From Rufibacter roseus (GTDB taxonomy: Bacteria; Bacteroidota; Bacteroidia; Cytophagales; Hymenobacteraceae), in NCBI RefSeq assembly GCF_001647285.1, contig NZ_LRML01000001.1:310001-374000 (forward strand): a stretch of 64,000 nucleotides of DNA. Direction: 5' to 3'. The translations under genes were made by a program, and so were the position numbers. Under the pieces are notes generated by a model that was not told the DNA's origin, made no database searches, and worked only from the letters and a program-made list of their open reading frames with translations. Below, piece after piece: positions 6,101-62,025 of the stretch; position 1 is the stretch's first letter; the number at the start of each line of letters is the position of its first letter.

Positions 6101-6138
6101 TGTTTTGGGGCTGTTTTTCTAAAAACAGCCCCAAAACA
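6101..6138. repeat. Intergenic palindrome, near-ideal family member
   Basis: Arms TGTTTTGGGGCTGTTTTT and AAAAACAGCCCCAAAACA are perfect 18-bp complements around the loop CT. It begins 6 nt after the stop of the second GHL10 gene. Because it ends in AAAACA on both strands, it lacks the T-run of an intrinsic terminator. Confidence 0.9.
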
Positions 6139-6186
6139 GAATACAAACAAGCTCAGAGTAGGAGATAAAGAGAGACCTCAAAAAGC

Positions 6187-7653
6187 ATGACCGTAGTAAC
6201 ATCACAGGTTTTGGAAGCCGCCCCGGTAGAGGTGCAGAAGCATTTGGCTTCTGTAACTGCACCTGCGCGCGCGTTCGGACTAGATGCTTTACGCGGGCTG
6301 GCCATTATAGGAATGGTGTTTTCCGGGGTGTTTCCGCATGAAAGCCCATGGCCGGGGTGGATGTTCCATGCCCAGGTAGGGCCTCCGGATTTTACCTATA
6401 CCCCAACCGTACCGGGCATTACCTGGGTAGACCTGGTGTTTCCGTTTTTCCTGTTCTCCATGGGGGCTGCCTTTCCGTTGGCCATGAGCCGAAAAATTGG
6501 TCAGGGGCAAACGGGCGAGGTTCTCCTGAATGTTCTAAAGCGGGGAGCGTTGCTGGTCTTTTTCGCAATTGTCATACGCAATCTGAACTGGTTTGGTTTG
6601 CAGGGGCCTGGCTGGGTAAACCAACTGACCTCACTGATCACTTTTGCATGCTTTTTTCTGGTATTCATGCGGTTCACTTCGCTAAAAGGGAGCCAGGAAG
6701 TGCTGGTAAAGTTGATTGGCTTTATAGTGATAGCTGGATTGGTATGGGCGCATGATAGCTTCACCGCTTTTGAATTCTCCAAAAGTAACAACGACATCAT
6801 TATAGTGGTATTGGCGAATATGGCGGTGGTTGGCTCTGTAATATGGTTGCTTACCCGCGGAAATATTCTTCTCAGAATGGGCGTGTTGGCTTTGTTTGCC
6901 GCCGTTTGGCTTACCCATGAAATAGAAGGCAGCTGGACAAGTGCCATCTATAACTTTCACCCGTCCCTGAATTGGATGTATCAGTTTAGGTTTCTGAAGT
7001 ATTTGTGCATAGTGCTACCCGGTTCAATATTGGGTGACCTGATGCTTAAGTACAGAACCGTTGGTGAAACCACTGGAAAAGGCTCCATTTCTAAGCTGTT
7101 ACTGGGTAGCCTTTGTTTGGCATTGGTCATCATAAACTTGTACGGGCTGTACACACGCCAGATTTACCTCACGCTGGCCGTAGATGCTGTGCTTTGCCTG
7201 GTAGGTTTTTGCTTATTGCACAAAACCATTACGAAGCAAGAACAACTGTGGCGACAGGTCTTTGGATGGGGCGTGTTTCTGTTGTGGCTGGGGTTAGCGT
7301 TTGAGCCTCTTGAAGGCGGTATCAAAAAAGACCCTTCCTCCTTCAGTTATTGGTTTCTGACTTCTGGGCTGGCGTTCTTCACTTATATTCTTTGCGATAT
7401 TCTTTCCCAACGTTTCCATAAAAATCTGTTCTGGAAATCCATTATTCAAAGTGGGCAGAACCCCATGGTGGCCTATGTGGGCACAGCCTTTTTGGTGTCA
7501 CCGCTGTTGGCGCTCACCCACTTTTCTGAGGTGCTGGAAACTCTGCGTGAAATTAATGTTTACCTGGGTATTGTCAAGGCCTTTGTCATTGCCGGGTTGG
7601 TAGTGGCAGTAACGGTCTACACTACCCGAAAGGGGTGGTTCTGGCGTACCTGA
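6187..7653 (+). CDS. NagX/DUF5009-family membrane acyltransferase
   Basis: This 488-residue polytopic membrane protein has about 12 hydrophobic segments. The N-terminal signature FGLDALRGLAIIGMVFSG followed by WVDLVFPFFLFSMGAAFPLA is typical of the DUF5009 / heparan-alpha-glucosaminide N-acetyltransferase (HGSNAT, NagX) family. In the human relative, a membrane His takes acetyl from cytosolic CoA and passes it to glucosamine on the other side. Bacterial members occur next to amino-sugar transporters and hydrolases. Here the gene lies between two GHL10 genes and a sodium:solute symporter, which supports a role in re-acetylating or trapping an amino sugar at the inner membrane. The acceptor is unknown. 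Confidence 0.78.
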   Translation: MTVVTSQVLEAAPVEVQKHLASVTAPARAFGLDALRGLAIIGMVFSGVFPHESPWPGWMFHAQVGPPDFTYTPTVPGITWVDLVFPFFLFSMGAAFPLAMSRKIGQGQTGEVLLNVLKRGALLVFFAIVIRNLNWFGLQGPGWVNQLTSLITFACFFLVFMRFTSLKGSQEVLVKLIGFIVIAGLVWAHDSFTAFEFSKSNNDIIIVVLANMAVVGSVIWLLTRGNILLRMGVLALFAAVWLTHEIEGSWTSAIYNFHPSLNWMYQFRFLKYLCIVLPGSILGDLMLKYRTVGETTGKGSISKLLLGSLCLALVIINLYGLYTRQIYLTLAVDAVLCLVGFCLLHKTITKQEQLWRQVFGWGVFLLWLGLAFEPLEGGIKKDPSSFSYWFLTSGLAFFTYILCDILSQRFHKNLFWKSIIQSGQNPMVAYVGTAFLVSPLLALTHFSEVLETLREINVYLGIVKAFVIAGLVVAVTVYTTRKGWFWRT

Positions 7654-7708
7654 TTTTATTACGATTACAAATAATACGAACACAAACAGATTGCTTTAAA
7701 ATAATAGA

Positions 7709-9589: not shown

Positions 9590-9592
9590 CTG

Positions 9593-10285
9593 ATGATCAG
9601 GAAGAAAAACCTATTCATGCTCTTAATAGCCGTGCTCCTTTTTAGTGGCATGGCTTGGGCGCAGGAAGCCGCCAAGATTGACAGTAGCTATGCCAACTCG
9701 CATTACCGCATGCGGCTGGATTTTTTCAGGCAAATGCCCAACCTGAAAAAGGAAATTGTCTTTCTGGGCAACAGCATTACCGAGGCGGGAGAGTGGCAGG
9801 AGCTGGTGCCATGCAAACCGGTAGTCAACCGCGGCATTAGTGGCGACGTGACGTGGGGAGTTTTAGCCCGGTTAGACGAAGTGTTGGCCTCTAAACCAGC
9901 CAAGATTTTCTTGCTTATTGGAGTAAATGATTTAAAGCGAGGAATATCAACTGAAATCATTTCAGCTAACCACCGGAGAATTCTGGCGCAAATAGAGCGG
10001 TATTCACCCAAAACCAAAGTGATTCTGCAGAGTGTGCTGCCAGTAAACGAAGATATGCTGGCTATAAACTATAAGAACATTAATAATGCTCTAATAGTGG
10101 AATTGAACAAACGGCTTCAGGTATTGGCAGGGGAGTATGGAAATGTAACCTTCATTAACCTGCATCCAACTTTTGCTGATAGTACCGGGCAATTAGAAAA
10201 AGGATTGTCAACTGATGGGCTGCACCTTAAAACGGTGGCCTACATAAAATGGGTAGAGTACCTGAGAAAAGAAAAGGTTCTGTAA
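9593..10285 (+). CDS. Exported SGNH/GDSL esterase, first tandem copy
   Basis: This 230-residue protein has a cleavable signal peptide ending GMAWAQ. The four SGNH blocks are visible: Ser61 in FLGNSITEAG, Gly84 in NRGISGD, Asn112 in IGVND, and Asp208/His211 in STDGLHL. The nucleophile context GNSIT is typical of the carbohydrate-esterase or PAF-acetylhydrolase-like branch, which removes acetyl groups from sugars. The gene starts 3 nt after the symporter stop. It is closely related to the genes at 10442 and 41859. O-deacetylation of an imported or surface amino sugar is a reasonable inference. Confidence 0.87.
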   Translation: MIRKKNLFMLLIAVLLFSGMAWAQEAAKIDSSYANSHYRMRLDFFRQMPNLKKEIVFLGNSITEAGEWQELVPCKPVVNRGISGDVTWGVLARLDEVLASKPAKIFLLIGVNDLKRGISTEIISANHRRILAQIERYSPKTKVILQSVLPVNEDMLAINYKNINNALIVELNKRLQVLAGEYGNVTFINLHPTFADSTGQLEKGLSTDGLHLKTVAYIKWVEYLRKEKVL

Positions 10286-10289
10286 GCCG

Positions 10290-10325
10290 TTTTTGGTGTG
10301 TTTTCTGAAAAACAGGCACAAAACA
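10290..10325. repeat. Intergenic palindrome, degenerate copy
   Basis: Arms TTTTTGGTGTGTTTTC and GAAAAACAGGCACAAAACA pair with a few mismatches. The copy follows the first SGNH esterase gene and is one of two palindromes in the same 156-nt gap. Confidence 0.75.
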
Positions 10326-10390
10326 GGAATAGAGAAAAAAGCTTGGACTCGGCCCATCAGTAGACTTGGAGTGGCTAAAAAAGAAATACG

Positions 10391-10428
10391 TGTTTTCAGG
10401 CTGTTTTCCTGAAAATAGCCTGAAAACA
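10391..10428. repeat. Intergenic palindrome, near-ideal copy
   Basis: Arms TGTTTTCAGGCTGTTTTC and GAAAATAGCCTGAAAACA differ from perfect pairing at one position, with loop CT. It lies 13 nt before the start of the second SGNH esterase, so it would be in or near its leader. Confidence 0.88.
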
Positions 10429-10441: not shown

Positions 10442-11149
10442 ATGAGATTACTACGTAAAGTGTGTAAACAAATGCTGAAAGGTAGCCTGGCGGTGCTTGG
10501 GGGCATGTTGTGGACTTTCACTGGTTTTGCCCAAACGGCCAAGCTAGACAGCAACTATGTGAACCCCCACTATGAAATGCGGTTGAAGGAGTTCAGCGCG
10601 CAGCCCATTCCTAAAAACGCCGTTGTGTTTTTAGGCAACAGCATTACGGCGCGCGGCAAATGGGCCGAGTTACTGCCCGGTATGCCCGTGGTCAACCGCG
10701 GCATCGGCGGTGACATTACGCATGGTGTTCTGGCCCGTTTAGATGACATCTTAGCGGCCAAGCCGAAGAAGATTTTCCTTCTCATCGGTATCAATGATTT
10801 GTCGCGCCGGTTCCCGGAAGAAGTCATCATGCAGAAATATGAGCAACTGGTGCAGCGCGTAAAACAGAAATCGCCTAAGACTAAGCTGTACGTGCAGAGC
10901 GTGTTGCCGCTGTTAGATGATATGCTGCAACCCGCGTACCTCAAAAACCTAAACCCGGCCGTGACCAGCCTTAACACAAAGCTACAGGCCTTTGCCAAAA
11001 AACATAAGCTCACCTACATTAACCTGCACCCGGTCTTTGCAGATGCCAGCGGCCAGCTTAAGAAAGAGTACTCGTTAGACGGCATTCACGTCACCGATGC
11101 GGCGTACCCGGTGTGGGTGCAGTACTTAAAAGATAAAAAATACCTGTAA
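10442..11149 (+). CDS. Exported SGNH/GDSL esterase, second tandem copy
   Basis: This 235-residue protein has a long N-terminal signal peptide ending near FTGFAQT. Its SGNH blocks are Ser67 in FLGNSITARG, NRGIGGD, IGINDLS, and DGIHV near the end. The layout of motifs and length match the gene at 9593 throughout, so the pair arose by tandem duplication. Base composition looks slightly more GC-rich than the first copy (for example GGCGCGCGGC near 10649), which suggests the copies diverged some time ago or have separate histories. The likely role is sugar O-deacetylation in the periplasm. Confidence 0.86.
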   Translation: MRLLRKVCKQMLKGSLAVLGGMLWTFTGFAQTAKLDSNYVNPHYEMRLKEFSAQPIPKNAVVFLGNSITARGKWAELLPGMPVVNRGIGGDITHGVLARLDDILAAKPKKIFLLIGINDLSRRFPEEVIMQKYEQLVQRVKQKSPKTKLYVQSVLPLLDDMLQPAYLKNLNPAVTSLNTKLQAFAKKHKLTYINLHPVFADASGQLKKEYSLDGIHVTDAAYPVWVQYLKDKKYL

Positions 11150-12155: not shown

Positions 12156-13349
12156 ATGAACCATTATTCTACGCTGTACAAGCAGGAGTTGTTAGAGAAT
12201 GTTATTCCGTTCTGGATGAAGCATTCCAAGGATGAAGAGCATGGCGGTTTTTATACTTGCTTAGACCAATTCGGGAAGGTGTTTGACACCGATAAGTTTA
12301 TTTGGCTACAGGGCCGTGAAACATGGATGTTCTCCATGCTGTATGACAAGGTAGCGCCCAAGCAAGAATGGTTAGACATGGCCGTGCACGGCGCCGATTT
12401 TTTAAAGAAACATGGCCGTGACGCTGAAGGCAATTTCTATTTCTCCCTTACCAAGCAGGGCCAGCCGCTTGTTCAGCCCTACAACATTTTCTCAGACTGC
12501 TTTGCAGCCATGGGCTTTGGTGCCCTCTACAAAGTAAAGCCAGAAGATGAGTACGCAGACATAGCCCGCAAGACATTCCAGAATATCCTTAACCGTCGCG
12601 AAAACCCTAAAGGCAAGTATAGCAAGGCCTACCCAGGCACGCGTAATCTGCGCAACTTCTCACTGCCCATGATCCTGAGCAACCTGTCTTTGGAGATGGA
12701 GCACCTGCTTGACAAAAGTCTGGTAGATTCGCTCATGCAGGAGATCATACATGAGGTAATGGAGGTATTTTACCATGAAGAGAGCGGCCTGATTCTGGAG
12801 AATGTTTACGAAGACGGCTCCTTTGCTGATTGTTTTGAGGGCCGACTGCTCAACCCTGGCCACATTATTGAAGCCATGTGGTTTATCATGGATCTGGCAG
12901 TGCGCCTGAAAGATCAAGCTCTGATCAACAGAACGGTAGAAATTGCCCTGCGCACCCTTGAATCTGGCTGGGACAATGAGTTTGGCGGTATTTTGTACTT
13001 CCAAGACATTAAAGGCCATCCGGTTCAGCAATTGGAGTGGGATCAGAAGCTATGGTGGGTACACGTAGAGGCATTGGTATGTATGGCAAAAGCCTACGCC
13101 GTTACCGGTGATGAGCGTTGCCAGCGGTGGTTTGAGAAGCTACATGACTATACTTGGAACCACTTCAGAGATGACCAGTACAGTGAATGGTTCGGTTACC
13201 TGAACCGCCGCGGCGAAGTGCTGCTCCCCTTGAAAGGCGGTAAGTGGAAAGGCTGTTTCCATGTGCCTCGTGCTTTGTACCAAGTGTACAGTACTCTGGA
13301 AAATTGTAAGATGGAGGTAGCTCAAGCTGAAAAGTTAGGCGCCAGATAA
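12156..13349 (+). CDS. N-acylglucosamine 2-epimerase (AGE/RnBP family)
   Basis: This 397-residue cytosolic alpha/alpha-barrel protein has the hallmarks of the renin-binding-protein type GlcNAc 2-epimerase: LQGRETWMFSMLY, GRLLNPGHIIEAMWF, QKLWWVHVEAL, and KGCFHVPRALY close to the C-terminus. The family interconverts N-acetylglucosamine and N-acetylmannosamine, while relatives act on cellobiose or mannose. The conserved NPGH and the KGCFHVPR block favour the GlcNAc type over cellobiose 2-epimerases. It is probably co-transcribed with the DUF4434 gene (11-nt gap) and is the clearest pointer that this locus handles amino sugars. No NanA lyase or ManNAc kinase gene is nearby. Confidence 0.86.
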   Translation: MNHYSTLYKQELLENVIPFWMKHSKDEEHGGFYTCLDQFGKVFDTDKFIWLQGRETWMFSMLYDKVAPKQEWLDMAVHGADFLKKHGRDAEGNFYFSLTKQGQPLVQPYNIFSDCFAAMGFGALYKVKPEDEYADIARKTFQNILNRRENPKGKYSKAYPGTRNLRNFSLPMILSNLSLEMEHLLDKSLVDSLMQEIIHEVMEVFYHEESGLILENVYEDGSFADCFEGRLLNPGHIIEAMWFIMDLAVRLKDQALINRTVEIALRTLESGWDNEFGGILYFQDIKGHPVQQLEWDQKLWWVHVEALVCMAKAYAVTGDERCQRWFEKLHDYTWNHFRDDQYSEWFGYLNRRGEVLLPLKGGKWKGCFHVPRALYQVYSTLENCKMEVAQAEKLGAR

Positions 13350-13416: not shown

Positions 13417-13424
13417 TTGCCGCG

Positions 13425-13459
13425 ATTTTGGCTTGTTTTTACAAAAACAGGTGAAAAAC
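13425..13459. repeat. Intergenic palindrome
   Basis: Arms ATTTTGGCTTGTTTTT and AAAAACAGGTGAAAAA pair imperfectly around loop AC. It lies directly after the T-tailed terminator and before cstA, so the terminator and the palindrome are separate elements in this gap. Confidence 0.75.
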
Positions 13460-13526
13460 ATATAAAAAGCTGCTCTTTCTGTTGTCTTTCCCTTTCTTTA
13501 CTTCCCAGCCAAGCTAAACAAAACAT

Positions 13527-14975
13527 ATGATTTCATTTTTTGTATCTGTAATTGCCCTGGTGGTGGGTTACATGGTTTACTCAAAGGTGGTAGAGCGAAT
13601 TTTTGGGGCAGACGTTCACCGGCCCACTCCCGCCCTTACCATGGCAGACGGCATGGATTACGTAGCCATGCCTCAATGGAAAATTTTCCTGATCCAGTTT
13701 CTGAACATAGCAGGTCTGGGGCCAATTTTCGGGGCGGTAGCCGGAGCTATGTGGGGGCCATCTGCTTTCCTCTGGATTGTGCTGGGTTCTATTTTTGCCG
13801 GAGGAGTGCATGACTACTTTTCTGGTATGCTCTCTGTTCGTAACGGAGGCGAAAGTATTACCGAAACCACTGGGCGTTATCTGGGCGGCTTCATGAAACA
13901 GTTCATGCGGGTGTTTACAATTATCCTGCTGGTAATGCTGGGAGCTGTATTTATTATAGGGCCAGCCAAGATTTTAGATGGTATGATGCAGGGTGTTGGC
14001 AGTGTGTCTATGTGGGTCTGGATCATCTTTGCGTACTATGTGCTCTCCACCGTATTGCCCATTGATAAAGTGATAGGTAAGCTGTATCCGGTGTTTGGGG
14101 TGGCGCTTTTATTTATGGCGTTGGGCATTTCAGTGATTATGATTTCCAGAGGGCTGGCAATACCGGAAATAACTTGGGACAATCTTACAAACCAACACAG
14201 CAGCCCTGAAAAATTCCCGCTTTTCCCCATGTTGTTTGTGACCGTGGCCTGTGGTGCCATCTCTGGTTTCCACTCCTCTCAGTCGCCAATGATGGCCCGG
14301 TGTATCACCAATGAACGCCAGGGCAGACCCGTATTTTTTGGTGCCATGGTGACCGAAGGGGTGGTAGCTTTAATATGGGCTGCAATCAGTATGAGTTTCT
14401 TCGGGAGCGTGGGAGGTTTAAACGAGGCCATGACTGAACATGGTGGCAACGCAGCTTGGGCCGTAAGCGAGATTTCTAATTCACTTTTGGGTAAAGTGGG
14501 CGGTGTTCTGGCGCTCTTAGGTGTAGTGGCTGCCCCTATTACCTCCGGCGATACTGCTTTCCGTAGTGCCCGCCTTATCGTGGCTGATTTCATGAAGTCA
14601 AACCAAGGGCCGTTAAAGAATCGTCTGCTCATCAGCATTCCATTATTTGCGGCGGGCTATGGATTAACCCTCATTGACTTTGCCGTGGTGTGGCGCTATT
14701 TCGCCTGGACAAACCAGTCTTTGGCTACCATAGTGCTGTGGGTGATTACCGCTTTTCTGATGAAAGAAAGAAAGTCATATTGGGTTACCCTGGTGCCGGC
14801 TGTTTTTATGACGGCCGTGGCTACTTCTTACATTCTGGTGGCTCCGGAAGGCTTCCAACTATCCACTGAAATTGCCTATACGGCGGGAGTGGGCACTGCG
14901 CTGGCGTTGCTGCTCTTTACCTTGTACAAAGCCTCTGCCAGAAAACGGGAGCCAGAAAAAGAGCTGGTAAAGTAA
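13527..14975 (+). CDS. cstA: CstA-family (carbon starvation) peptide/pyruvate transporter
   Basis: This 482-residue inner-membrane protein has about 12-14 spans. Signatures include GLGPIFGAVAGAMWGPSAFLW, GGVHDYFSGMLSVRNGG, and the block GAISGFHSSQSPMMARC. It also carries ITSGDTAFRSARLI, all typical of CstA. It is shorter than E. coli CstA (about 700 residues) but of usual length for Bacteroidota members. E. coli CstA and its paralogue BtsT import peptides and pyruvate. Palindromic repeats flank the gene on both sides (13425 and 14993), so it is probably its own unit rather than part of the amino-sugar operon. Confidence 0.88.
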   Translation: MISFFVSVIALVVGYMVYSKVVERIFGADVHRPTPALTMADGMDYVAMPQWKIFLIQFLNIAGLGPIFGAVAGAMWGPSAFLWIVLGSIFAGGVHDYFSGMLSVRNGGESITETTGRYLGGFMKQFMRVFTIILLVMLGAVFIIGPAKILDGMMQGVGSVSMWVWIIFAYYVLSTVLPIDKVIGKLYPVFGVALLFMALGISVIMISRGLAIPEITWDNLTNQHSSPEKFPLFPMLFVTVACGAISGFHSSQSPMMARCITNERQGRPVFFGAMVTEGVVALIWAAISMSFFGSVGGLNEAMTEHGGNAAWAVSEISNSLLGKVGGVLALLGVVAAPITSGDTAFRSARLIVADFMKSNQGPLKNRLLISIPLFAAGYGLTLIDFAVVWRYFAWTNQSLATIVLWVITAFLMKERKSYWVTLVPAVFMTAVATSYILVAPEGFQLSTEIAYTAGVGTALALLLFTLYKASARKREPEKELVK

Positions 14976-14992: not shown

Positions 14993-15032
14993 CTGTTTTA
15001 GGCTTGTTTTTACAAAAACAGGCCTAAAACAG
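14993..15032. repeat. Intergenic palindrome, near-ideal copy
   Basis: Arms CTGTTTTAGGCTTGTTTTT and AAAAACAGGCCTAAAACAG pair with one mismatch around loop AC. It starts 17 nt after the cstA stop. Confidence 0.9.
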
Positions 15033-16094: not shown

Positions 16095-16147
16095 TATTAA
16101 AGCGGAAGGGCAGGTTGAGATTCTCAACCTGCCCTTCCGCTTTAATA
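16095..16147. terminator. Perfect 26-bp bidirectional terminator hairpin
   Basis: A 26-bp perfect inverted repeat with a 1-nt loop (core AGCGGAAGGGCAGGTTGAGA and its complement) lies between two convergent genes ending at 16085 and 16162. Each side ends in CTTTAATA, giving a short T-rich tail in both directions. It belongs to a different sequence type from the dispersed palindromes. Confidence 0.85.
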
Positions 16148-22434: not shown

Positions 22435-23166
22435 ATGAAACCTCTTTCTGTCTTTAACTGGAGCGGCGGCAAAGACTCTGCGCTTGCCTTGTATAGGGTG
22501 CAACAGCAGCAGAAATGGCAGCTGCACAGTCTGTTCACCACCCTGAGCCAAGCCCACCAAAGAGTAACCATGCACGGAGTACGCGAAGAACTGATGCGTG
22601 CGCAGGCAGAAGCATTGTCTTTGCCTTGGAAGCCCGTTTTCCTGCCTGAGAATGCCAGCATGAGTGAGTACAATGAGACGATGGCTGAGGCGTGGGCAAA
22701 CTTTAAATCTGAAGGAGTAACGAATGCGCATTTCGGAGATATTTATCTGGAGGACTTGCGGAAATATAGAGAGGGGCAACTAAAGGAAGTAGGTGTGACG
22801 GCAGAGCTCCCGCTGTGGGGAGATTCGCCGGAGCGCTTGTTGCAGGAATTTTGGCAAGCAGGCTTTAAAGCAAAAGTTGTGTGCGTAAACGGGAAACATT
22901 TAGATTCCTCCTTTGTGGGAAGAGAATTGGATGATGCGTTTATTCAGGGGCTACCTGCCCCCGTTGACCCCTGCGGCGAAAACGGGGAGTATCATTCTTT
23001 TGTGTATGATGGCCCAAACTTCAAACAGCCAGTGCCCGTGCAGGTAGGGGAGGTGGTGTATAAAAGCTATGCCCCAGTTACTGAAAATACAGAAGATAAT
23101 TGCTTTGCCTCGGCCCCGCCGGCCTATGATACAGGCTTCTGGTTCTGTGATTTGCTCTTAGTTTAG
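22435..23166 (+). CDS. Dph6-type PP-loop ATPase (diphthine-ammonia ligase family)
   Basis: This 243-residue cytosolic protein has the PP-loop motif WSGGKDS at residues 9-15. It also carries the family signatures TMHGVREELMRAQAEAL, HFGDIYLEDLRKYREGQL, LWG, and DPCGENGEYHSFVYDGP. The eukaryotic and archaeal relatives amidate diphthine on elongation factor 2. Bacteria lack diphthamide, so the usual label is a family name and the bacterial reaction (an ATP-driven amidation of unknown substrate) is open. It stands alone, with a palindromic repeat after it, and no neighbour hints at the substrate. Confidence 0.87.
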   Translation: MKPLSVFNWSGGKDSALALYRVQQQQKWQLHSLFTTLSQAHQRVTMHGVREELMRAQAEALSLPWKPVFLPENASMSEYNETMAEAWANFKSEGVTNAHFGDIYLEDLRKYREGQLKEVGVTAELPLWGDSPERLLQEFWQAGFKAKVVCVNGKHLDSSFVGRELDDAFIQGLPAPVDPCGENGEYHSFVYDGPNFKQPVPVQVGEVVYKSYAPVTENTEDNCFASAPPAYDTGFWFCDLLLV

Positions 23167-23182
23167 CCTGATTCCTTGTGTT

Positions 23183-23217
23183 GTTTTTGGCTTGTTTTTC
23201 AGAAAACAGGCTAAAAA
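23183..23217. repeat. Intergenic palindrome
   Basis: Arms GTTTTTGGCTTGTTTTT and GAAAACAGGCTAAAAA pair well around a short CA loop. It lies between the Dph6-type gene and the acyltransferase gene that starts 31 nt later. Confidence 0.82.
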
Positions 23218-23248
23218 TGCGTAGCTTCCTACGTTATTCCAGAGCCGT

Positions 23249-24637
23249 ATGCTGTATTTCCTGCTAAAAACCCTTTTTCAGATTGCCCTGCGCGTGTTTT
23301 TCAGGCGCTTTACGGTGGACAACCGACATTTTCTTCAAGCGGATGGGCCGTTGATCGTGGTATCTAACCACCCCAACACGCTCATGGACCCTGTGGTCAC
23401 GGCTTCGCTCATGAAGCAGAAAATCCACTTTCTGGCCAAAAGCAGTTTCTTCAAACCCGGTATTCAGGCATGGCTTTTCCATCAGTTGTTCATGATACCC
23501 GTGTACCGCCGCGAAGACGTGGGAGCCAGCGGCACTGCCCAAAATGACGCCACTTTTGCCAAGTGCTATGAATTTTTGGGCAAGGGAGGCACGCTCATGG
23601 TTTTTCCGGAAGGCAACAGTTTTATGCAGCGCCGCCTGCGCCCGCTTAAAACCGGTACCGCGCGTATTGCCTTAGGCGCCGAGGCGCAGAATAATTTTGA
23701 GCTGGGGCTGCGCATTTTGCCCGTGGGGCTCAATTATTCTGACCCGTCCAGGTTCAGGAGTGAGGTTTTTGTGAACGTTGGCGAACCCATTGCCGTGAAA
23801 GATTTTGAGGCTGCCTTTGCTGAAGATCCGTTCAAAACGGCCCATGCGCTCACAGACCATCTGAAAGATCGCCTGCAGGATCTGGTGATTCATACCGAGA
23901 CCGACGAAGAAGATGCCCTGGCCAGGCAGGTAGAGGCTGTTTACCAAGACAAGCTGGTGAAGGAGCTAGATTTAGCAGATTCTGAGCCCAAAGAGAAGTT
24001 TTTGATCACAAAGGGAATTGTGCAGAGCATCAAATATTTTGAAGCCAAAGACCCGCAGCGTGTGCACGCCCTCACAGCAGAACTGCAAGACTACTTGCAG
24101 CACCTCAGCAGTTTAGGTTTGGCCCCTGACGGAGTCAGAAATGCTCCCAAACGAAGCCGTGTGGCGTGGGGTACGGTAGAAACTATATTGTATTTGGTGC
24201 TTGGTTTGCCTTTTTACCTGTTCGGAGTAATTCATAATTATCTGCCTTATCTGCTGCCCTCCAAAATTGCGAGGGCTCTCACCAAAGACGTAGAGTTTTA
24301 CGCGCCCATGATGATGACCATTGGTATGTTTACCTTCCCTATGTTCTATGCGCTGATTGGCTTTGGAGTACATGCCTGGCTAGGGTTGTCTGGCTGGGCT
24401 TTGGTGGGGTATATAATGGCGTTGCCCATCACCGGTTTCTTCGTGCTGCATTATTGGCACCGCATTGAGGTAGCACGCCGGCATTGGATTTTCTTTTCAT
24501 TGTTTTACCGCCGCTCCACCGTGCTGCAACAATTACTGCAGCAGCGAACTAATTTAATACAGGCCTTAGAGGCCGCTAGAGCGGATTTTTTGGCCTCTTT
24601 TCCAGAAAATAACCCTAAAACAGAAGCAGTGAGATAG
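23249..24637 (+). CDS. Glycerolipid acyltransferase (PlsC superfamily, GPAT-like)
   Basis: This 462-residue protein has an N-terminal acyltransferase domain (residues about 20-220) and three or four membrane spans near 315-420. The catalytic block is NHPNTLMDP (His41 to Asp47), an H-X5-D spacing rather than the H-X4-D of PlsC. The acceptor block is FPEGNSFMQRRLRPLKTG. This combination resembles the fungal Gat1/Gat2-type glycerol-phosphate or dihydroxyacetone-phosphate acyltransferases. It probably transfers a fatty acyl group to a glycerol-phosphate backbone at the inner membrane. The last ~13 codons coincide with a copy of the dispersed palindrome (24586). Confidence 0.84.
   Translation: MLYFLLKTLFQIALRVFFRRFTVDNRHFLQADGPLIVVSNHPNTLMDPVVTASLMKQKIHFLAKSSFFKPGIQAWLFHQLFMIPVYRREDVGASGTAQNDATFAKCYEFLGKGGTLMVFPEGNSFMQRRLRPLKTGTARIALGAEAQNNFELGLRILPVGLNYSDPSRFRSEVFVNVGEPIAVKDFEAAFAEDPFKTAHALTDHLKDRLQDLVIHTETDEEDALARQVEAVYQDKLVKELDLADSEPKEKFLITKGIVQSIKYFEAKDPQRVHALTAELQDYLQHLSSLGLAPDGVRNAPKRSRVAWGTVETILYLVLGLPFYLFGVIHNYLPYLLPSKIARALTKDVEFYAPMMMTIGMFTFPMFYALIGFGVHAWLGLSGWALVGYIMALPITGFFVLHYWHRIEVARRHWIFFSLFYRRSTVLQQLLQQRTNLIQALEAARADFLASFPENNPKTEAVR
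24586..24622. repeat. Copy of the dispersed palindrome inside a coding 3' end
   Basis: The stretch TTTTTTGGCCTCTTTTC, then CA, then GAAAATAACCCTAAAACA matches the family layout, and its right half closely matches the intergenic copies at 27266 and 34385. It is translated as part of the acyltransferase C-terminus (FLASFPENNPKT) before the stop at 24635. The arms pair imperfectly, so it has decayed or has been adapted to coding. Confidence 0.65.
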
Positions 24638-26090: not shown

Positions 26091-26138
26091 ATAAACAGAA
26101 AGCTCTGCTTTGTTTACAAGGCAGGGCTTTCTGTTTAT
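26091..26138. terminator. Bidirectional terminator hairpin
   Basis: ATAAACAGAAAGCTCTGCTT pairs with AGGCAGGGCTTTCTGTTTAT with two mismatches around an 8-nt loop. It lies between convergent genes ending at 26064 and 26173, and ends in CTGTTTAT on both strands. Confidence 0.75.
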
Positions 26139-27265: not shown

Positions 27266-27304
27266 CGTTTTTAACCTATTTTCTGAAAATAAGCTCTAAA
27301 ACAG
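27266..27304. repeat. Intergenic palindrome, degenerate copy
   Basis: CGTTTTTAACCTATTTTC and GAAAATAAGCTCTAAAACA pair with several mismatches around a T. It lies between the stop of uvsE and the start of the DUF6929-like gene, both on the - strand. Confidence 0.75.
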
Positions 27305-28297: not shown

Positions 28298-28334
28298 TGT
28301 TTTAGGGCTGTTTTTGTGAAAACAGCCTCAAAAC
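28298..28334. repeat. Intergenic palindrome
   Basis: TGTTTTAGGGCTGTTTTT and GAAAACAGCCTCAAAACA pair well around a GT loop. It lies between the start of uvsE (28200) and the stop of the long alpha-2-macroglobulin gene (28449). Confidence 0.85.
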
Positions 28335-28448
28335 AATAGTCATTCTGCAACAGGAGACCTCGCAGTGTCTCCAAGACCTGCGAGCGTCTGTGCCAGTAGC
28401 CATTGCTTATTTTAAGACTCAAGACTCAGAGCTCACGACTCAGAACTC

Positions 28449-34384: not shown

Positions 34385-34424
34385 GCGTTTTAAGGCTGAT
34401 TCTCAGAAAATAAGTCTAAAACGC
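34385..34424. repeat. Intergenic palindrome between divergent genes
   Basis: GCGTTTTAAGGCTGATTCT and AGAAAATAAGTCTAAAACGC pair imperfectly. The copy lies upstream of both the macroglobulin gene (-) and sucD (+). The latter's predicted promoter begins 48 nt after its end. Confidence 0.8.
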
Positions 34425-38666: not shown

Positions 38667-38703
38667 TGTTTTGATGCTGTTTTGTAGAAAATAGCCCTAC
38701 AAT
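38667..38703. repeat. Intergenic palindrome, degenerate copy
   Basis: TGTTTTGATGCTGTTTTG and AGAAAATAGCCCTACAATA pair partially. It sits between the start of the GH172 gene and the end of the GH116 gene on the - strand. Confidence 0.65.
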
Positions 38704-38794
38704 AGCTTTTCAAAGCAATAAGAGAAACTGTTACAGGTTCCTCAGCAAAGTAATTGTTGAAAATAAAAGCCTATTATGGTTACTCTTAGCCTTT

Positions 38795-41467: not shown

Positions 41468-41858
41468 GCTACTTGAATTTAGATTCAGCAAGAATCTTGT
41501 ACAGAAAGCTCTTGGCCTCGTTTTTTTTCTGGGGGTAAAATTTCTTCAGGTGGATTATTTAAGTTTCTTTCAATCATTAAGCTCTCTTGCCGCAGTCTCT
41601 GTTTAGCAACGCTACTATGGCTAAGAGCAAACTTTAAAAAATACTCTTACTTAAAGGGCTATTTTAAGACATCTAAAAATGTAGATGCCAAAGTCTCAAC
41701 CGAGATAGATCTTGTTTAATCGATTAACTTAAATTATAGGTTTTCCTGAAGCTTTGTTTGGTGCTTATTAGAATGAAAACTGAGGATATGTTTTAGAGCT
41801 GTTTTGGTAAAATTTGCCCCAAAACAATACTTTCCTGAGTGGTCATTCCTGCCGGAGC
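41468..41858. other. Intergenic region upstream of GH116 gene
   Basis: This 391-nt gap holds the likely GH116 promoter (- strand) and one palindromic repeat at 41789. A second notable stretch is AT-rich sequence at 41600-41745. No gene-sized frame with coding character was seen. Confidence 0.5.
41789..41826. repeat. Intergenic palindrome
   Basis: TGTTTTAGAGCTGTTTTG and AAAATTTGCCCCAAAACA pair with a few mismatches around a GT loop. It is 3' of the SGNH gene (- strand stop at 41859 lies 33 nt away). Confidence 0.78.
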
Positions 41859-42578: not shown

Positions 42579-42616
42579 TGTTTCAGGCCTGTTTTTGAAA
42601 AAGTAAGCCAGAAACA
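42579..42616. repeat. Intergenic palindrome
   Basis: TGTTTCAGGCCTGTTTTT and GAAAAAGTAAGCCAGAAACA pair with a few mismatches. It fills most of the 79-nt gap between the SGNH gene and the glycerophosphodiesterase gene, so the two may be separately transcribed. Confidence 0.8.
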
Positions 42617-45019: not shown

Positions 45020-45069
45020 TTTACTTAAGCGAGGGTGCTTGTTATAACTTCTATATTGCTGTTTGCCTT

Positions 45070-45109
45070 CTGTTTTTGGCATGCTTTTTTAAAAACAAGC
45101 CAAAAACAG
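45070..45109. repeat. Intergenic palindrome, strong copy
   Basis: CTGTTTTTGGCATGCTTTTT and AAAAACAAGCCAAAAACAG pair well around a one- or two-base loop. It lies upstream of the calcineurin-like start. Confidence 0.85.
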
Positions 45110-45230: not shown

Positions 45231-45270
45231 CTGTTTTAGGCCTACTTTTAATAAAACAGTTCTATAACAG
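45231..45270. repeat. Intergenic palindrome
   Basis: CTGTTTTAGGCCTACTTTTA and AAAACAGTTCTATAACAG pair imperfectly. It is the second copy in the same gap and lies 53 nt before the NAGLU stop. Confidence 0.72.
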
Positions 45271-45322: not shown

Positions 45323-47563
45323 TTATTGAAGGGCATACTGGTTTGCCAACAAAGGTTTATATTTCTGATAGAGGCTTCTGGCTTCTTCTATTGAATTACC
45401 TTTAGTCTGATCAGAGTAGGGCTCATGACTATTCACCCATTGCCATTCCCAGTCCTTTATTTTTTTATCAAACTCCTTTTGATCCATGGGTTTGCCCTGT
45501 GCCATTGAGGTGTTGACATAGTCAAAAAACTGGCTCCAACGGGGCTTGTAAAAGCCGGTTAGCATACCAGACCATTGCCGGCACGAGTAATCATGCAGCC
45601 TGCTGTCTTTGTCTCCCCAGAGGGTAATCAGGTTGCGGGCGTTTTTCTCGTACAAATCTTTCTCTGCTTGATTTTTTCCCCATGCTTTGGCAGAGTTAAG
45701 CCAGCGGCCCAAAAGAAACTGGTGGTGCGTGGCCAATAGCCGGTCCATGTCTTCTATCACCGCCAAGAACTGCTGACTCCGCTTTCTAAATGCGGCAGTG
45801 TCTTCTCTTTGGTAATCCATGGCAAACTGCTGTTGCAAGGTGTCGGCATAATTAGCCAGTACCTGGCGGGTTACATCTACCAAGTCATACCTGAAACCCT
45901 CACTGTTCTTCAAGTCCTTAGAGGCGGCTAATAATCCTTCCCAGGCTGGAATCAAATCGGCAGGGCGGTACGCTTTGTCTGTGTCGGTCCAGCGGTTTTT
46001 CTTGTTAAAGGTAGGTCTGCCGGTTATAATAGACTCTGGCCCGCCAGATTTTATAGCTCCATCGTACACGGTGTGGCGCAATATTTCCCACGCTTTTTCT
46101 GCGGATGCATTTTGCTGGCCATAACGCCTTTGAACATAATTTGGGAGCCAGGTATCCAAACTGATGGGAGTGCTGCGCCAAACGTTTTCCAGCATGAGTT
46201 CATACATGACCGGGTTTTGCTCAATAGCTTCGGGCGTTAGCCCTATGCCTACCATGTTTCTGGAGCTGGGGTCTTGCAAAGCAGTGGCCGGACCGTTGGC
46301 AACGCTGTTCATGCGGCCGTACATGCTCACATTTCCGCCAAAGTTGTGAAGCATGCACCATATCCAGGGTTTGCCGTAGTAGGCATCGGTTCTGCTCCAT
46401 ACAGGTTTACTCTCGCTGTACAGGTCCAGTACTATCATTTTGTCATTAGGTACGGCATTGAGCAAGGCCTGTATCTGGGTAGGCTGCCAGAATTTAGCGG
46501 AGTAGGAGAACATCCAGCCCTGCATAATCCAGGTGGCTTTTGGGTCTACCGAGGCCATAGACTGGTACACTTTCTTACTGATGTCGTTCAGGTAAGTAGA
46601 ATCATTGGTGGGCGGGGTGTTCTCATTGAAAGTGTCGGCTGAGTAGTAATGGTCTGTGCCGAAGGTATTGATTTCCTCCTGCAGGAATTCTTTCCCTACA
46701 GTTGTGAACATAGGGTCATCAGGGTCAAGAATATATACTTCGTCAAAGCCTTGCCACCGGGTTTTCTTTAGTTTGGCCTCAGGGAATTTGTCTTTGAAAG
46801 CGGGGGGGACGTGTCCGGTAAAAGCGGGTAGGATAGGGGTCATGCCTAAAGCGCGCTCCTGCTCCAGAATCTTTTTCTGCAGTTCTTCATGGCTTTTCAT
46901 AAAGCTTTGGGGCAGCGGACCGCCCCAGCCATCAAGGTTGCCCATCCAGAACCAGTTAAAATAGGCGGGGCCGCTGTAAAAACTAGCTAAGTCTTTGTCT
47001 GTAAAGCCCAGTTTTTTGTAGACCCGGTCCCAGATGGCGTTTTGTCCGGTTACGGCCAAAGGCATGTTAATGCCGTTCATGGCCATCCAGTCAATCTCTT
47101 TCTGCCACCGCTCCCAGTCCCACCAGCTCATGGTGTAGTTGAAGGTGCAGTAATTAAGGTAGTACCGGTATTTGTAAGGGGAGACTTTTCTGTCTTTTTG
47201 CGTTACCGCAGGCAGTTTTTTAGGCAGGTTAAGAGTAGAGCCGTTCCAGGAAATATGGGAATTGGTGTACGTTTTCAGGTAATGATTTAACGCACTGGCT
47301 ACTGACACGCCATTATTGCCACGCAGTACAATCTTTCCTCTTTTGCCCTCCACTTCAAACACATCATTTTCACCATCACTGGGAATAATTGCTACCTGAA
47401 ACTGATTGGCATGTTTGGGGAGCACACGTTTGATTAAGGCATAGGCCGCTTTCTCCTGCGCATCAAGAACTGCCTTGCCGGAACCTGTATTGCCGGCTAT
47501 AGCGCCTTGCATGGCACATAGAATTGCAATCAAATAGAGGGAGTATTTATATATTATTTTCAT
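45323..47563 (-). CDS. Alpha-N-acetylglucosaminidase (GH89, NAGLU family)
   Basis: This 746-residue exported protein starts MKIIYKYSLYLIAILCAMQGAIAG. The domains are a small N-terminal domain (residues ~30-120), the catalytic TIM barrel, and an all-alpha C-terminal domain. GH89 signatures include NYCTFNYTMSWWDWERW, DWMAMNGINMPLAVTGQNAIW, WFWMGNLDGWGGPLP, DTFNENTPPTND, and PWIWCMLHNFGGN. Human NAGLU and Clostridium CpGH89 cleave terminal alpha-GlcNAc from heparan sulfate or mucin-type glycans. The presence of this enzyme and the GlcNAc 2-epimerase at 12156 shows the strain uses GlcNAc-containing glycans. Length and domain order are normal. Confidence 0.95.
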   Translation of the reverse strand: MKIIYKYSLYLIAILCAMQGAIAGNTGSGKAVLDAQEKAAYALIKRVLPKHANQFQVAIIPSDGENDVFEVEGKRGKIVLRGNNGVSVASALNHYLKTYTNSHISWNGSTLNLPKKLPAVTQKDRKVSPYKYRYYLNYCTFNYTMSWWDWERWQKEIDWMAMNGINMPLAVTGQNAIWDRVYKKLGFTDKDLASFYSGPAYFNWFWMGNLDGWGGPLPQSFMKSHEELQKKILEQERALGMTPILPAFTGHVPPAFKDKFPEAKLKKTRWQGFDEVYILDPDDPMFTTVGKEFLQEEINTFGTDHYYSADTFNENTPPTNDSTYLNDISKKVYQSMASVDPKATWIMQGWMFSYSAKFWQPTQIQALLNAVPNDKMIVLDLYSESKPVWSRTDAYYGKPWIWCMLHNFGGNVSMYGRMNSVANGPATALQDPSSRNMVGIGLTPEAIEQNPVMYELMLENVWRSTPISLDTWLPNYVQRRYGQQNASAEKAWEILRHTVYDGAIKSGGPESIITGRPTFNKKNRWTDTDKAYRPADLIPAWEGLLAASKDLKNSEGFRYDLVDVTRQVLANYADTLQQQFAMDYQREDTAAFRKRSQQFLAVIEDMDRLLATHHQFLLGRWLNSAKAWGKNQAEKDLYEKNARNLITLWGDKDSRLHDYSCRQWSGMLTGFYKPRWSQFFDYVNTSMAQGKPMDQKEFDKKIKDWEWQWVNSHEPYSDQTKGNSIEEARSLYQKYKPLLANQYALQ

Positions 47564-47614: not shown

Positions 47615-47653
47615 TGTTTTTGCGCTGATTTCCAAAAAGGAGCTTCAAAACGC
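47615..47653. repeat. Intergenic palindrome
   Basis: TGTTTTTGCGCTGATTTCC and AAAAAGGAGCTTCAAAACG pair imperfectly. It lies upstream of the NAGLU start and 37 nt from the stop of the PLD-like gene. Confidence 0.72.
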
Positions 47654-47689: not shown

Positions 47690-48877
47690 TTACCGTACCA
47701 TACCCGGAAGCTTTTTCATTTGGTCATAGTAGCTCATGAAAGAATCAAAGAACGTAGCGTGGTTCTTGAACAAGAGCATGACCTCATTATTGTAATAAAC
47801 GGCATTGCCGGTGTAGTTGTGGGTGCCAGTAATCAGTAAGGTAGATTGCTCTCCGTTCAGCTTACCTTTAATGAGCATGAACTTGGCGTGGTTGTTAATC
47901 TTGCGCTGGTTAGAGAGAGTCAGGTTGTATATTTTAACGTAGGCACCCTGCTGATGTAAATCATCGAGCGCGGATATAATCTCTGGTGCGGCTGTGCTTT
48001 TGGCTATTACCTCTACGGTAGCACCCTGCTCATGCAGGCTTTTTAATTTTTGTACTACGTTTATGCGGGCGGCAGTCCAGTCAGACATGCCAACCCTTAT
48101 CAAGGCCGAAGAAGGCTCGGTGATTTGGTTTAAGATATCAATGATGGGGTCTGTGCCGTAATTTCTGCCGTTTCTTCTTTTAGGGAAAAAGTAAGCAGTA
48201 AGACCGGCAGCAGGGTCTTCAAACTCCCTGTACTCAAAATTCTTCATACCGCTGGAGGCTTTTGCCTTCATGTCATTCCAATAAGTAAGATAGGCGTCGT
48301 AAAGCCCCGGGTTAGAAAGTACGGTAGCTTCCTGAATCTTCTTTGAATCGCCTTCAGTAAAATTGTGCGAGGTCTGAAATACAATCTTCTCCGCTTTCCC
48401 GTCTGGTGTCTTGAGTTCAGAGAAAATCACGAATTTGTTGTGGTTAATAGAAGTATTGCCGGCATCATTGTCTACCACTACCACCTCTGAGTTTGGTTTG
48501 ATAAAGCTCCTGAGTTCTGAAATAGTAGGCGCATTCTCAGCCTGGGTTTCGGCTCGGCTCATGTCTACCATTAGGTGCAGATTTACGCCCCGGTCGCTGG
48601 CTCTTCTTAAGGCGCTGATGACTCCTTCATGGGTAAAACCAAATATGCTAAGGTGCAGAGAAGATGCTTCAGGAGATGCGTCTATCATGGAAATCAACCT
48701 GTCCATGATTACAGGAGAAGCAACTGAATTACCAATATGGGTTAACTGGGTGAAAATAAGGTCATTCACCGACGACTCCAGGGGAATGGTAGTGTCGTTT
48801 TTAGGGGGAGTTTCTTCTGTTTTACAGCTAGAAAAAGCGAGGAGAAACAGAAGAAATAAAAATTTTGTCTTAAACAT
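47690..48877 (-). CDS. Phospholipase-D-like lipoprotein with divergent HKD motifs
   Basis: This 395-residue lipoprotein has signal MFKTKFLFLLFLLAFSSCKT (Cys18). It has two PLD-superfamily halves. The first HKD site is INHNKFVIFSE (His146, Lys148), followed by QTSHNFTEGD. The second is NNHAKFMLIKG (His330, Lys332), followed by TGTHNYTGNA. In both, the Asp of the H-x-K-x4-D motif is replaced (Ser in the first, Lys in the second), although the following Asn is kept. A phosphodiester-cleaving role on lipids or nucleic acids is the family expectation; the missing Asp residues make the activity uncertain. It lies at the end of the exported hydrolase run. Confidence 0.8.
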   Translation of the reverse strand: MFKTKFLFLLFLLAFSSCKTEETPPKNDTTIPLESSVNDLIFTQLTHIGNSVASPVIMDRLISMIDASPEASSLHLSIFGFTHEGVISALRRASDRGVNLHLMVDMSRAETQAENAPTISELRSFIKPNSEVVVVDNDAGNTSINHNKFVIFSELKTPDGKAEKIVFQTSHNFTEGDSKKIQEATVLSNPGLYDAYLTYWNDMKAKASSGMKNFEYREFEDPAAGLTAYFFPKRRNGRNYGTDPIIDILNQITEPSSALIRVGMSDWTAARINVVQKLKSLHEQGATVEVIAKSTAAPEIISALDDLHQQGAYVKIYNLTLSNQRKINNHAKFMLIKGKLNGEQSTLLITGTHNYTGNAVYYNNEVMLLFKNHATFFDSFMSYYDQMKKLPGMVR

Positions 48878-48940: not shown

Positions 48941-48974
48941 ATTTTGGCTTAATTTTTAGGAAATAAGCCAAAAC
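48941..48974. repeat. Intergenic palindrome
   Basis: ATTTTGGCTTAATTTTTA and AAATAAGCCAAAACT pair well in the GGCTT/AAGCC core. It lies upstream of the PLD-like start (48877, - strand). Confidence 0.78.
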
Positions 48975-57527: not shown

Positions 57528-57533
57528 AAGATC

Positions 57534-59054: not shown

Positions 59055-59066
59055 AGTTTCTGATGG

Positions 59067-60701: not shown

Positions 60702-61187
60702 TTGTGTTGTAATTTATATAAAGTGCTTTCATATGCTTCCGTATTAAAAGTATGTTAGTTATTTATTAAAACCAAAAGAAATAAAATAATTTTATTATAT
60801 GGTACATGAGTTTTTTTGAAAGAATGGCAATATCTTAAGTTGGCTGAAAGTAAAGCGTGCTACATTAGTTTGTTTTCCATTCTTCCAGATAAAGAAGGTG
60901 ATTCAGTCTGTCAAGCATAAGCAAGCATTGGTATTTTAAACAAAACTAAATATTTATGGGGAGCCTCATTTTTGCATAATATTATCTGAAGAACAGGGTT
61001 ATATCTATAGAATGAAAGCAGCTATACATTGTGGTGTAGCCAATAGGTGGTGTTGCAGGTAAGTTTATTTTGGGTGCTGATTTATTTAGGCGGTTTGGAT
61101 TTAGTAAGAAAGAATTAAATATTGTATATAAATGGCTGAATATTACAAGTTGTTTCGTTTTATTGTTAATTACTTGATGTGTCACCA
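60702..61187. other. Divergent regulatory region between glpD and the GlpR-like gene
   Basis: This 486-nt AT-rich gap contains the predicted glpD promoter at 60745-60776 and must include the regulator's own promoter and operators, which I could not place. No palindrome-family copy occurs here. A 101-residue - strand frame at 60982-61287 overlaps the regulator start and was judged spurious. Confidence 0.55.
60745..60776 (-). promoter_or_regulatory. Likely promoter of the glp operon
   Basis: Read on the - strand, TTTG (60776-60773) is followed after 20 nt by TACTTTTA (60752-60745), a 7 of 8 match to TAnnTTTG. Start of transcription would lie about 35-40 nt before the glpD ATG at 60701. Confidence 0.5.
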
Positions 61188-61958
61188 ATGATAAATTTAA
61201 CCGAAAGGCATCAGCATATAATAAATAAGCTCCAGCAGAAAGGGCAGGTGGCAGTAATAGATTTGTGTGATGAGTTAAGGGTATCATCTGTTACTATCAG
61301 AAAAGACCTGAAGCTGTTAGAAGATAAGGGGTTGCTGTTTAGGACGCATGGGGGGGCTACCCAATATAACCCTTACACAATTGACTTGCCTGTAAATGAG
61401 AAGGAGAATTTACAGGCAAGTGAAAAGAACCGTATAGCGCTGGCAGCGGCAGGTTTGATAGAGCCAAATGATTCTATTTTGATTGCTTCTGGTACTACCG
61501 TGCTGGCGCTGGCCAAACTTATTCAACCAAGTTTACTTAAAAACCTTACAGTCATAACTTCGGCTTTAAATGTTGCTCTTGAGTTGCTTCACCACCCTGA
61601 GGTAGAGGTAATTCAGTTAGGCGGCATTTTAAGAAGAAGCTCCTCTTCTGTAACTGGTCCTTATGCTGAAAGTGTATTGGCTGATTTCTCCTGCAGCAAG
61701 TTGTTTTTGGGTGTGGATGGAATTGACTTGGAGTTTGGTTTAACCACAACCAACGTGATGGAAGCACATTTGAACAGACAAATGATCAATATTTCACAGA
61801 AAGCCATTGTGTTGGCAGATTCCTCTAAGTTTGGGAAACGGGGCTTTGGGAAAATTTGTGGCTTTGATGAAATTGACCAGATTATTACAGATAAAGGAAT
61901 TTCAGACCACACCTTTAAAAGTTTACAAGGAATGGGGGTAAAAGTAACGATTGTTTAA
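61188..61958 (+). CDS. glpR: DeoR/GlpR-family transcriptional regulator
   Basis: I start at ATG 61188 (MINLTERHQHIINKLQQKGQ); a GTG at 61179 is also in frame. The 256-residue protein has an N-terminal winged helix (VAVIDLCDELRVSSVTIRKDLKLLEDKGLLFRTHGGA) and a C-terminal sugar-phosphate sensor domain (DSILIASGTTVLALAKLI, VIQLGGILRRSSSSVTGPYAE, LFLGVDGIDLEFGLTTTN). This is the GlpR/DeoR layout. The sensing domain normally binds a sugar phosphate, here presumably glycerol-3-phosphate, releasing DNA. Its divergent position next to glpD makes it the candidate repressor of the glp operon. The symbol is from context, since many DeoR paralogues look alike. Confidence 0.82.
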   Translation: MINLTERHQHIINKLQQKGQVAVIDLCDELRVSSVTIRKDLKLLEDKGLLFRTHGGATQYNPYTIDLPVNEKENLQASEKNRIALAAAGLIEPNDSILIASGTTVLALAKLIQPSLLKNLTVITSALNVALELLHHPEVEVIQLGGILRRSSSSVTGPYAESVLADFSCSKLFLGVDGIDLEFGLTTTNVMEAHLNRQMINISQKAIVLADSSKFGKRGFGKICGFDEIDQIITDKGISDHTFKSLQGMGVKVTIV

Positions 61959-61987
61959 AGGCTGACTTCTCACAACTTTACATTTCT

Positions 61988-62025
61988 CGTTTTATGGCTA
62001 TTTTCTTAAAATCAGCCATAAAACG
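61988..62025. repeat. Intergenic palindrome between convergent genes
   Basis: CGTTTTATGGCTATTTT and AAAATCAGCCATAAAACG pair with one bulge. It is the only element in the 70-nt gap between the 3' ends of glpR and oxyR. Confidence 0.85.

Follow-up and report, generated by a model that had tools for sequence, protein, structure and literature searches.

A short palindrome recurring in Rufibacter roseus

The 64,000-nt stretch of DNA analysed here (the window) belongs to the 5.12 Mb genome of Rufibacter roseus and carries 17 full copies and one partial copy of a 38-bp palindrome, hereafter the element. An initial annotation of the window had counted about 18 related palindromes, and inspection of the letters found its layout at all 18 places, the last ones being imperfect. 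An unguided repeat search of the window independently assigned 17 of the 18 to a single ungapped family 38 nt long, the start positions differing slightly (for example 10288 for 10290 and 13423 for 13425), and the copy noted at 48941 proved to be a partial match only. Rfam models gave no match in the window at the gathering score. The copies, to which no strand is assigned, are listed below with the open reading frames (ORFs) around them.

6101..6138, 38-bp palindrome, 6 nt past the stop of ORF 4736-6094(+); 56.2 bits, perfect 17/17 arms
10288..10325, 38-bp palindrome, immediately 3' of the stop of ORF 9593-10285(+)
10391..10428, 38-bp palindrome, same gap as the 10288 copy, preceding ORF 10442-11149(+)
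13423..13460, 38-bp palindrome, codirectional gap between ORFs 12156-13349(+) and 13527-14975(+)
14994..15031, 38-bp palindrome, 3' of the stop of ORF 13527-14975(+)
23182..23219, 38-bp palindrome, gap between ORFs 22435-23166(+) and 23249-24637(+); orthologous gap occupied in species G013, G007 and G008
24585..24622, 38-bp palindrome, overlapping the final codons of ORF 23249-24637(+), frame read by hand
27266..27303, 38-bp palindrome, 3 nt past the stop of ORF 27307-28200(-); orthologous copy in G008 and G013
28298..28335, 38-bp palindrome, gap between ORFs 27307-28200(-) and 28449-34319(-); orthologous copy in G013
34386..34423, 38-bp palindrome, divergent gap between ORF 28449-34319(-) and the next plus-strand ORF; orthologous copy in G013
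38667..38704, 38-bp palindrome, gap between codirectional (-) ORFs
41789..41826, 38-bp palindrome, gap between codirectional (-) ORFs
42579..42616, 38-bp palindrome, 11 nt past the stop of ORF 42628-43542(-)
45071..45108, 38-bp palindrome, overlapping the 5' end of ORF 43610-45082(-), the start codon of which is uncertain
45232..45269, 38-bp palindrome, same gap as the 45071 copy, downstream of ORF 45323-47563(-)
47615..47652, 38-bp palindrome, downstream of ORF 47690-48877(-)
48942..48973, partial weak copy, 25.9 and 21.8 bits on the two strands
61988..62025, 38-bp palindrome, convergent gap 61958/62029, 3 nt past the stop of ORF 62029-62964(-)

Between 49000 and 61980 lie about 13 kb without a copy, taken up mainly by one minus-strand gene run.

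Anatomy of the element

The consensus of the element is YGTTTTNGGSCTGTTTTY followed by its complement. Each arm holds two GTTTT boxes 11 bp apart, and the arrangement GTTTT-N5-TGTTTT occurred 278 times in R. roseus, as against 3-18 times for the eleven other spacers tried. In R. roseus, 377 of 406 pairs of 17-nt arms were separated by exactly 4 nt, as were 65 of 67 pairs in G013 and 142 of 144 in G007; this nearly constant spacing does not bear out the varying loop described in the initial annotation. Nor was the GGC/GCC core the best-kept part. The T runs and their complements were best preserved in R. roseus, with values of 97-99% at positions 4, 5, 15, 16 and 17, and the GGC part was weaker (68% and 64% for the two G and 75% for the C at position 11). 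Half-sites on their own numbered 68, 149 and 326 at three thresholds, strictest first, compared with 38, 105 and 274 in shuffled sequence. The element combines a near-fixed half-site spacing with primary-sequence constraint, as expected of protein-binding palindromes, the spacing being looser in G008. The consensus differed among species at many sites together, the T at position 7 for example being present in 34% of copies in R. roseus, 95% in G013 and 86% in G007, and such a concerted shift would fit a trans-acting reader.

Copy number and distribution across genomes

A symmetric matrix identified 143 sites in 464 kb of the R. roseus genome at a score of at least 14 and none in shuffled sequence, and 455 copies in the 1.264 Mb sampled at a score of at least 9 compared with 6 after shuffling, in agreement with the view that these are copies of one element and not chance hairpins. 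By scaling, the total for the genome is estimated, not counted, at about 1,600-1,900 copies. A strict pattern gave 439 matches in the whole R. roseus genome, and a covariance-model search in which only 150 of 7,179 first-look candidates were scored gave at least 150 matches on both strands. The strict pattern matched all 16 Rufibacter genomes (11 to 1,259 places) and none of 23 genomes of other genera; among 200 genomes of the family, 5 of the 184 outside the genus gave one or two stray matches. Ten loci encoding relatives of a window protein in named genomes, nine from Rufibacter and one from Sabulibacter ruber, all carry the element in 5-18 copies each, with no copy in the shuffled control of nine and one in that of the tenth; of the corresponding loci in the 16 genus genomes, 10 were identical to these. 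Low strict counts can mislead: G008 gave 11 strict matches, but in 200 kb of it the matrix identified 125 sites, compared with 6 after shuffling. One exact copy was also present in an IMG/VR viral contig (L199, 1220-1310), directly 3' of a terminator-like hairpin the T run of which overlaps the element. In searches of the Rufibacter and Hymenobacter/Pontibacter literature, no listed title or abstract opening described such a repeat, subscription papers being mostly outside the scope of this search.

Placement at gene ends and conservation in place

Placement was analysed in R. roseus, G013, G007 and G008 pooled, using sampled stretches that covered a quarter of the R. roseus genome and about 4-10% of the genomes of the three other species. 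Scores and thresholds vary among tests; copies within predicted genes or at the ends of stretches were omitted from the strand and gap-class tests, as were, where stated, copies scoring below 14 (below 12 in the placement and terminator tests). The element was found in 136 of 162 convergent gaps of at least 80 bp, usually as one copy near the stop codons, in 212 of 315 codirectional gaps and 54 of 118 divergent gaps of at least 200 bp, and in 4 of 293 codirectional gaps shorter than 45 bp. The number of occupied gaps exceeded that expected from a Poisson spread of copies in the convergent (136 vs 101), codirectional (212 vs 176) and divergent (54 vs 47) classes. In codirectional gaps of at least 120 bp from three species, copies were concentrated near the upstream stop, 76 and 67 of 340 lying in the first two tenths. 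The element had been described as not obviously tied to any gene, a description at odds with its preference for positions soon after stop codons, its presence in most convergent gaps and its occurrence in shared orthologous gaps.

Conservation in place was assessed in gaps between adjacent reciprocal-best gene pairs that measured at least 45 bp in both species, the orthologues sharing a median of 77-94% of residues across the species compared. Occupancy was concordant in 28/32, 43/55, 33/39, 30/34, 51/52 and 38/45 gaps for the six species pairs, higher in every pair than gap class and length predicted (17.1, 30.0, 21.1, 18.2, 30.3 and 24.5). Sequences were compared only where each species had exactly one copy in the gap (small samples, n = 13, 10, 16 and 20 pairs). 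Between R. roseus and the three others, 4-fold degenerate sites were 43-44% identical and flanks aligned at 0.58-0.63 compared with 0.56 for random sequence; the consensus was nevertheless retained, and orthologous copies were 0.64-0.71 alike compared with 0.56-0.66 for random copies. In the closer pair, G013 and G007, the values were 0.59 for 4-fold sites, 0.74 for flanks and 0.83 for orthologous copies compared with 0.75 for random copies. Occupancy is thus shared despite diverged 4-fold sites and flanks, and selection therefore probably keeps the copies in place. On these sequence comparisons, purifying selection in place probably acts on the consensus, with the variable positions drifting freely.

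A drive sequence, whether for DNA uptake or of another kind, that is maintained through biased acquisition and not for a cellular role would share with the element its high copy number, its restriction to one genus and its species dialects. Half-sites, however, were few in excess, and the copies are mostly intergenic and occupy shared positions; known uptake sequences are also far shorter than 38 bp. Such an origin is very improbable.

A proposed site in duplex DNA

An excess of G-T over A-C mismatches would be expected on the transcribed strand of an RNA hairpin kept by selection, which would tolerate G-U pairs. At a score of at least 14 in the four species, no such preference was seen in the element: on the transcribed strand, codirectional gaps gave 582 G-T and 570 A-C, and convergent gaps 217 of each. 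The control set of 201 terminator-like hairpins from eight sampled genomes, picked with a symmetric mismatch rule, gave 81 G-T and 28 A-C. An asymmetry in an early set of 91 codirectional copies (137 vs 102) vanished with more data. Mean pairs per element, given against the column-shuffled expectation, were 14.59/14.59 in G013, 13.71/13.91 in G007, 9.74/9.64 in G008 and 12.86/12.43 in R. roseus, and thus above expectation only mildly in R. roseus and not in the other three. Covariation had suggested an RNA hairpin in the window alignment; in larger sets it came down to an excess at some columns, mainly in R. roseus.

We tentatively propose, with a confidence somewhat short of even, that the element is a recognition site in duplex DNA for a putative multimeric Rufibacter protein and forms a boundary at gene ends. 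Its site-like character is the better supported part of this proposal and is rather probable. The data supply the sequence constraint, the near-fixed spacing, the placement, the conservation in place and the lack, in most copies, of an RNA-strand signature; from these we infer the protein, its binding and the boundary effect. The 11-bp spacing of the boxes is about one helical turn and the arms are an almost constant 4 nt apart, an arrangement that would allow as many as four subunits to bind along the same helical face. Sites bound in this way would act as orientation-independent boundaries between neighbouring, above all convergent, genes, where they might slow read-through or hold supercoils, the choice between the two being a guess.

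A number of observations weigh against this proposal. In G008, 67 of 112 arm pairs were spaced at 4 nt, under a laxer threshold, and the shift of the consensus could be attributed in part (C for T at positions 1 and 18) to G+C content. The element also occupies divergent gaps, as well as short codirectional ones possibly within operons, and the term "transcription-unit boundary" is therefore only approximate; 44 of 455 copies in R. roseus and 39 of 125 in G008 fell inside predicted genes, which were called by a simple home-made coding-score caller that sets some starts and small genes wrongly. Two of 16 species-by-position subsets deviated in wobble, in opposite directions (23 vs 9 for near copies in convergent gaps of G013 and 36 vs 59 for far copies in codirectional gaps of G007). 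Pairing was in excess at columns 1, 6, 7, 8, 9 and 10 in R. roseus, 12 in G013 and 16 in G007. Perfect 17/17 copies numbered 19, 8 and 7 in R. roseus, G013 and G007, where 0.5, 1.9 and 1.7 were expected, and in G008 there were 8 copies with at least 14 pairs compared with about one expected. An outer stem of at least 4 bp was present in 51 of 448 codirectional copies, 22 of them having a downstream T tract compared with 6 on the other strand. Canonical terminators were not fewer beside the element (pooled odds ratio 1.39, p 0.15, element masked), and in convergent gaps of R. roseus they were more common where the element was present (51/166 vs 4/36, p 0.02).

Termination and RNA hairpins

Some of these observations would suit an RNA element, either a terminator acting in both directions or an mRNA-protecting hairpin at the 3' end, as would the location of the copies soon after stops. 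The T tracts of the outer-stem subset and the excess of perfect palindromes in three species are of this kind, and some copies start within the T tract of an adjoining terminator-like hairpin; some outer-stem copies look like terminators that contain the element. The T runs, however, are 5' and the A runs 3' on both strands, in keeping with the earlier remark that the element is not a classic intrinsic terminator. The balance of G-T and A-C also differs from that of terminator-like hairpins, the loop length is almost constant in three species, and the 397 codirectional copies without an outer stem had T tracts equally on both sides (22/22). A U tract after the stem was absent from the bulk of copies and present in 22 of the 51 with an outer stem. 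Since no inverse relation with canonical terminators was found, a terminating role of the element lacks specific support. The idea that the element replaces terminators was dropped. The sign of the first counts had hinged on the handling of T tracts overlapping the element; once the element itself was masked in both sets, an inverse relation was no longer seen. It is unlikely that most copies act in Rho-independent termination, and an RNA element as the general explanation is quite unlikely. The excess of perfect palindromes in more than one species and the looser spacing in G008 slightly lower our confidence in a duplex DNA site and slightly raise that in an RNA element. Near-perfect long terminator-like hairpins were present in the window at 16100-16141, 26093-26135 and 35457-35499, the first two in convergent gaps free of the element.

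The perfect symmetry of a subset of copies could also have arisen by template switching within quasi-palindromes, independently of function, a process that is possible, if doubtful, and compatible with a duplex DNA site. Perfect copies in R. roseus have individual arms and no single master sequence, and by hand count 8 of 19 extend their symmetry by at least 4 pairs into the flanks. Orthologous copies of G013 and G007 showed 21 double changes where 12.6 were expected, the clearest excess over independence, and 10 of them stay paired in both species. Double changes in pairs with G008 were near expectation (35/33.0, 35/32.1 and 41/35.5), however, and template switching does not explain the placement of the copies or the conservation of their consensus. 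The compensating changes anticipated for a structured element are thus present, but in a minority of copies only, and the excess of perfect copies and the paired changes may come from template switching or from a selected subset.

Mobility and origin

The initial annotation had likened the element to a repetitive extragenic palindromic (REP) sequence or a miniature inverted-repeat transposable element (MITE). The likeness held for the size, copy number and intergenic location, the element being a palindromic intergenic repeat of 20-40 bp in high copy; it did not hold for a MITE or a strict REP, with no clear target-site duplication, few tags and no special link to a REP-associated tyrosine transposase (RAYT). 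Each GTAG or CGTC tag string lay near an end, on either strand, in 10-28 of 446 copies in R. roseus (about 2-6%), and in 3-6 of 154 in G007 and 1-8 of 105 in G008, values that have no chance baseline; the one-end tag of REPs was thus not a general feature of these copies. Direct repeats of 4-9 bp were near the shuffled expectation in the three species, being slightly raised at 4 bp (58 vs 48.7) and 5 bp (22 vs 14.7) in R. roseus and at 4 bp in G007 (25 vs 17.3).

Selfish REP-like palindromes, spread by a transposase and surviving downstream of genes where insertion is least harmful, would have the size, copy number and bias to convergent and codirectional gaps of published REPs (PMC3733652). 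A transposase search that covered Y1_Tnp genes gave RAYT-like matches, 45 in total, in 15 of the 16 Rufibacter genomes, and the number of copies of the element would imply that they multiplied in a burst at the root of the genus. The remaining genome, G007 (one contig, 99% complete), gave no Y1_Tnp match at E ≤ 0.001 and yet holds 523 strict matches. For 30 of the 45 Y1_Tnp loci, the surroundings held 2.40 copies per locus compared with 1.61 for control genes, but this raw excess was tied to longer flanking gaps, and at loci with flanking gaps of 250-900 bp the density per gap length was like that of controls (17 vs 170 loci), so a special link to the RAYT-type transposase that the initial annotation had suggested looking for was not borne out. 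Together with the direct repeats near the shuffled level, the occupancy common to orthologous gaps and the excess of occupied gaps over a Poisson spread, this makes a population of selfish palindromes unlikely. The copies most likely originated in an ancient burst at the root of the genus, with which a REP-like ancestry is compatible.

A different element in the sister genus

The sister genus g2 (genome G016) has a different and mostly asymmetric element, with the consensus ACTTTTTnngnnnAAAccATAGCGTTTT. Its strict pattern gave 437 and 422 matches on the two strands of G016 and 32 and 27 in a second g2 genome, and none in the 16 Rufibacter genomes; four genomes of the order gave one or two stray matches. 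In 100 kb of G016, there were 85 hits compared with 0-1 in shuffled sequence, 43 of them inside predicted genes and some apparently in repeated coding sequence. Of the gaps of at least 80 bp in the same 100 kb, the g2 element occupied 7 of the 8 convergent, 17 of the 28 codirectional and 4 of the 7 divergent ones, a placement similar to that in Rufibacter, and the orientation relative to codirectional genes was the same in 11 cases and opposite in 12. By eye, the inner T run, the A run and the outer tract of the g2 element have a spacing that resembles the Rufibacter arm; we infer a functional kinship of the two elements. Intergenic AT-rich words were also enriched in two genomes from other genera, G017 (TATATATA) and G018 (TTTTTAAA/AAATTTAA). 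Unguided motif searches of these two genomes resolved no element, the palindrome scores relative to shuffled sequence being 262/203 and 248/189 in G017 and 250/178 and 236/176 in G018, and the free-motif scores 251/210 and 290/224 in G017 and 347/175 and 288/229 in G018; G018 may hold an element of its own.

A wider possibility, speculative at present, is that this bacterial family marks its gene ends with lineage-specific DNA boundary elements, which together with a coevolving protein that reads them form a genome-wide insulator; its recognition sequence would vary by genus, being palindromic in Rufibacter and asymmetric in g2, and its placement would stay constant. Repeated bacterial palindromes are commonly classified as mobile or RNA elements whose use is uncertain, whereas here very many sites per genome, in most convergent gaps, look held by selection as double-stranded DNA. 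If a protein reads these sites, they would make up a bacterial equivalent of an insulator or roadblock system, and with the different element of g2 one could test whether a protein coevolves with very many sites simultaneously. The hairpin shape alone is not sufficient for the label of terminator or MITE.

Neighbouring genes in the window

Two adjoining glycoside-hydrolase-like genes with GHL10 and DUF4985 domains lie at 3182-4585 and 4736-6094, near a SusD-type gene. They are probably a tandem duplication, a 115-nt stretch being 75% identical.

Comparison with known systems

Published systems compared with the element include REPs, together with bacterial interspersed mosaic elements (BIMEs), and GapR (PMC8360656). 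REPs have been described as palindromes of 20-40 bp, in high copy, in convergent and codirectional gaps and near 3' ends (PMC3733652). The Rufibacter element is like REPs and BIMEs, with their GTAG and CGTC tags, in size, copy number and location at 3' ends. It differs from them in being two-fold symmetric with like ends, usually without a one-sided tag and without a special RAYT link, and in having a near-fixed spacing, positions shared across well-separated species and a number of occupied gaps in excess of a Poisson spread. Like intrinsic terminators, it is capable of forming a hairpin after stops, with an outer stem in 51 of 448 codirectional copies and a downstream T tract in 22 of these, but its T/A polarity is reversed, no wobble asymmetry is seen and most copies have no U tract.

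BIME-2 elements are gyrase sites, and positive supercoils are thought to gather at convergent gene ends; GapR is reportedly linked to convergent 3' ends. These and the Rufibacter element are all DNA-level features at convergent gene ends, and we know of no sequence relation of the element to BIME-2, gyrase or GapR sites. The sites known as parS and matS and those of Noc and SlmA are short palindromes read by a dedicated dimeric protein, and are far fewer and limited to domains of the chromosome. The Rufibacter element is likewise a short palindrome, for which the protein is here a putative one, but with an estimated 1,600-1,900 copies it is spread throughout the sampled contigs and lies at gene ends.

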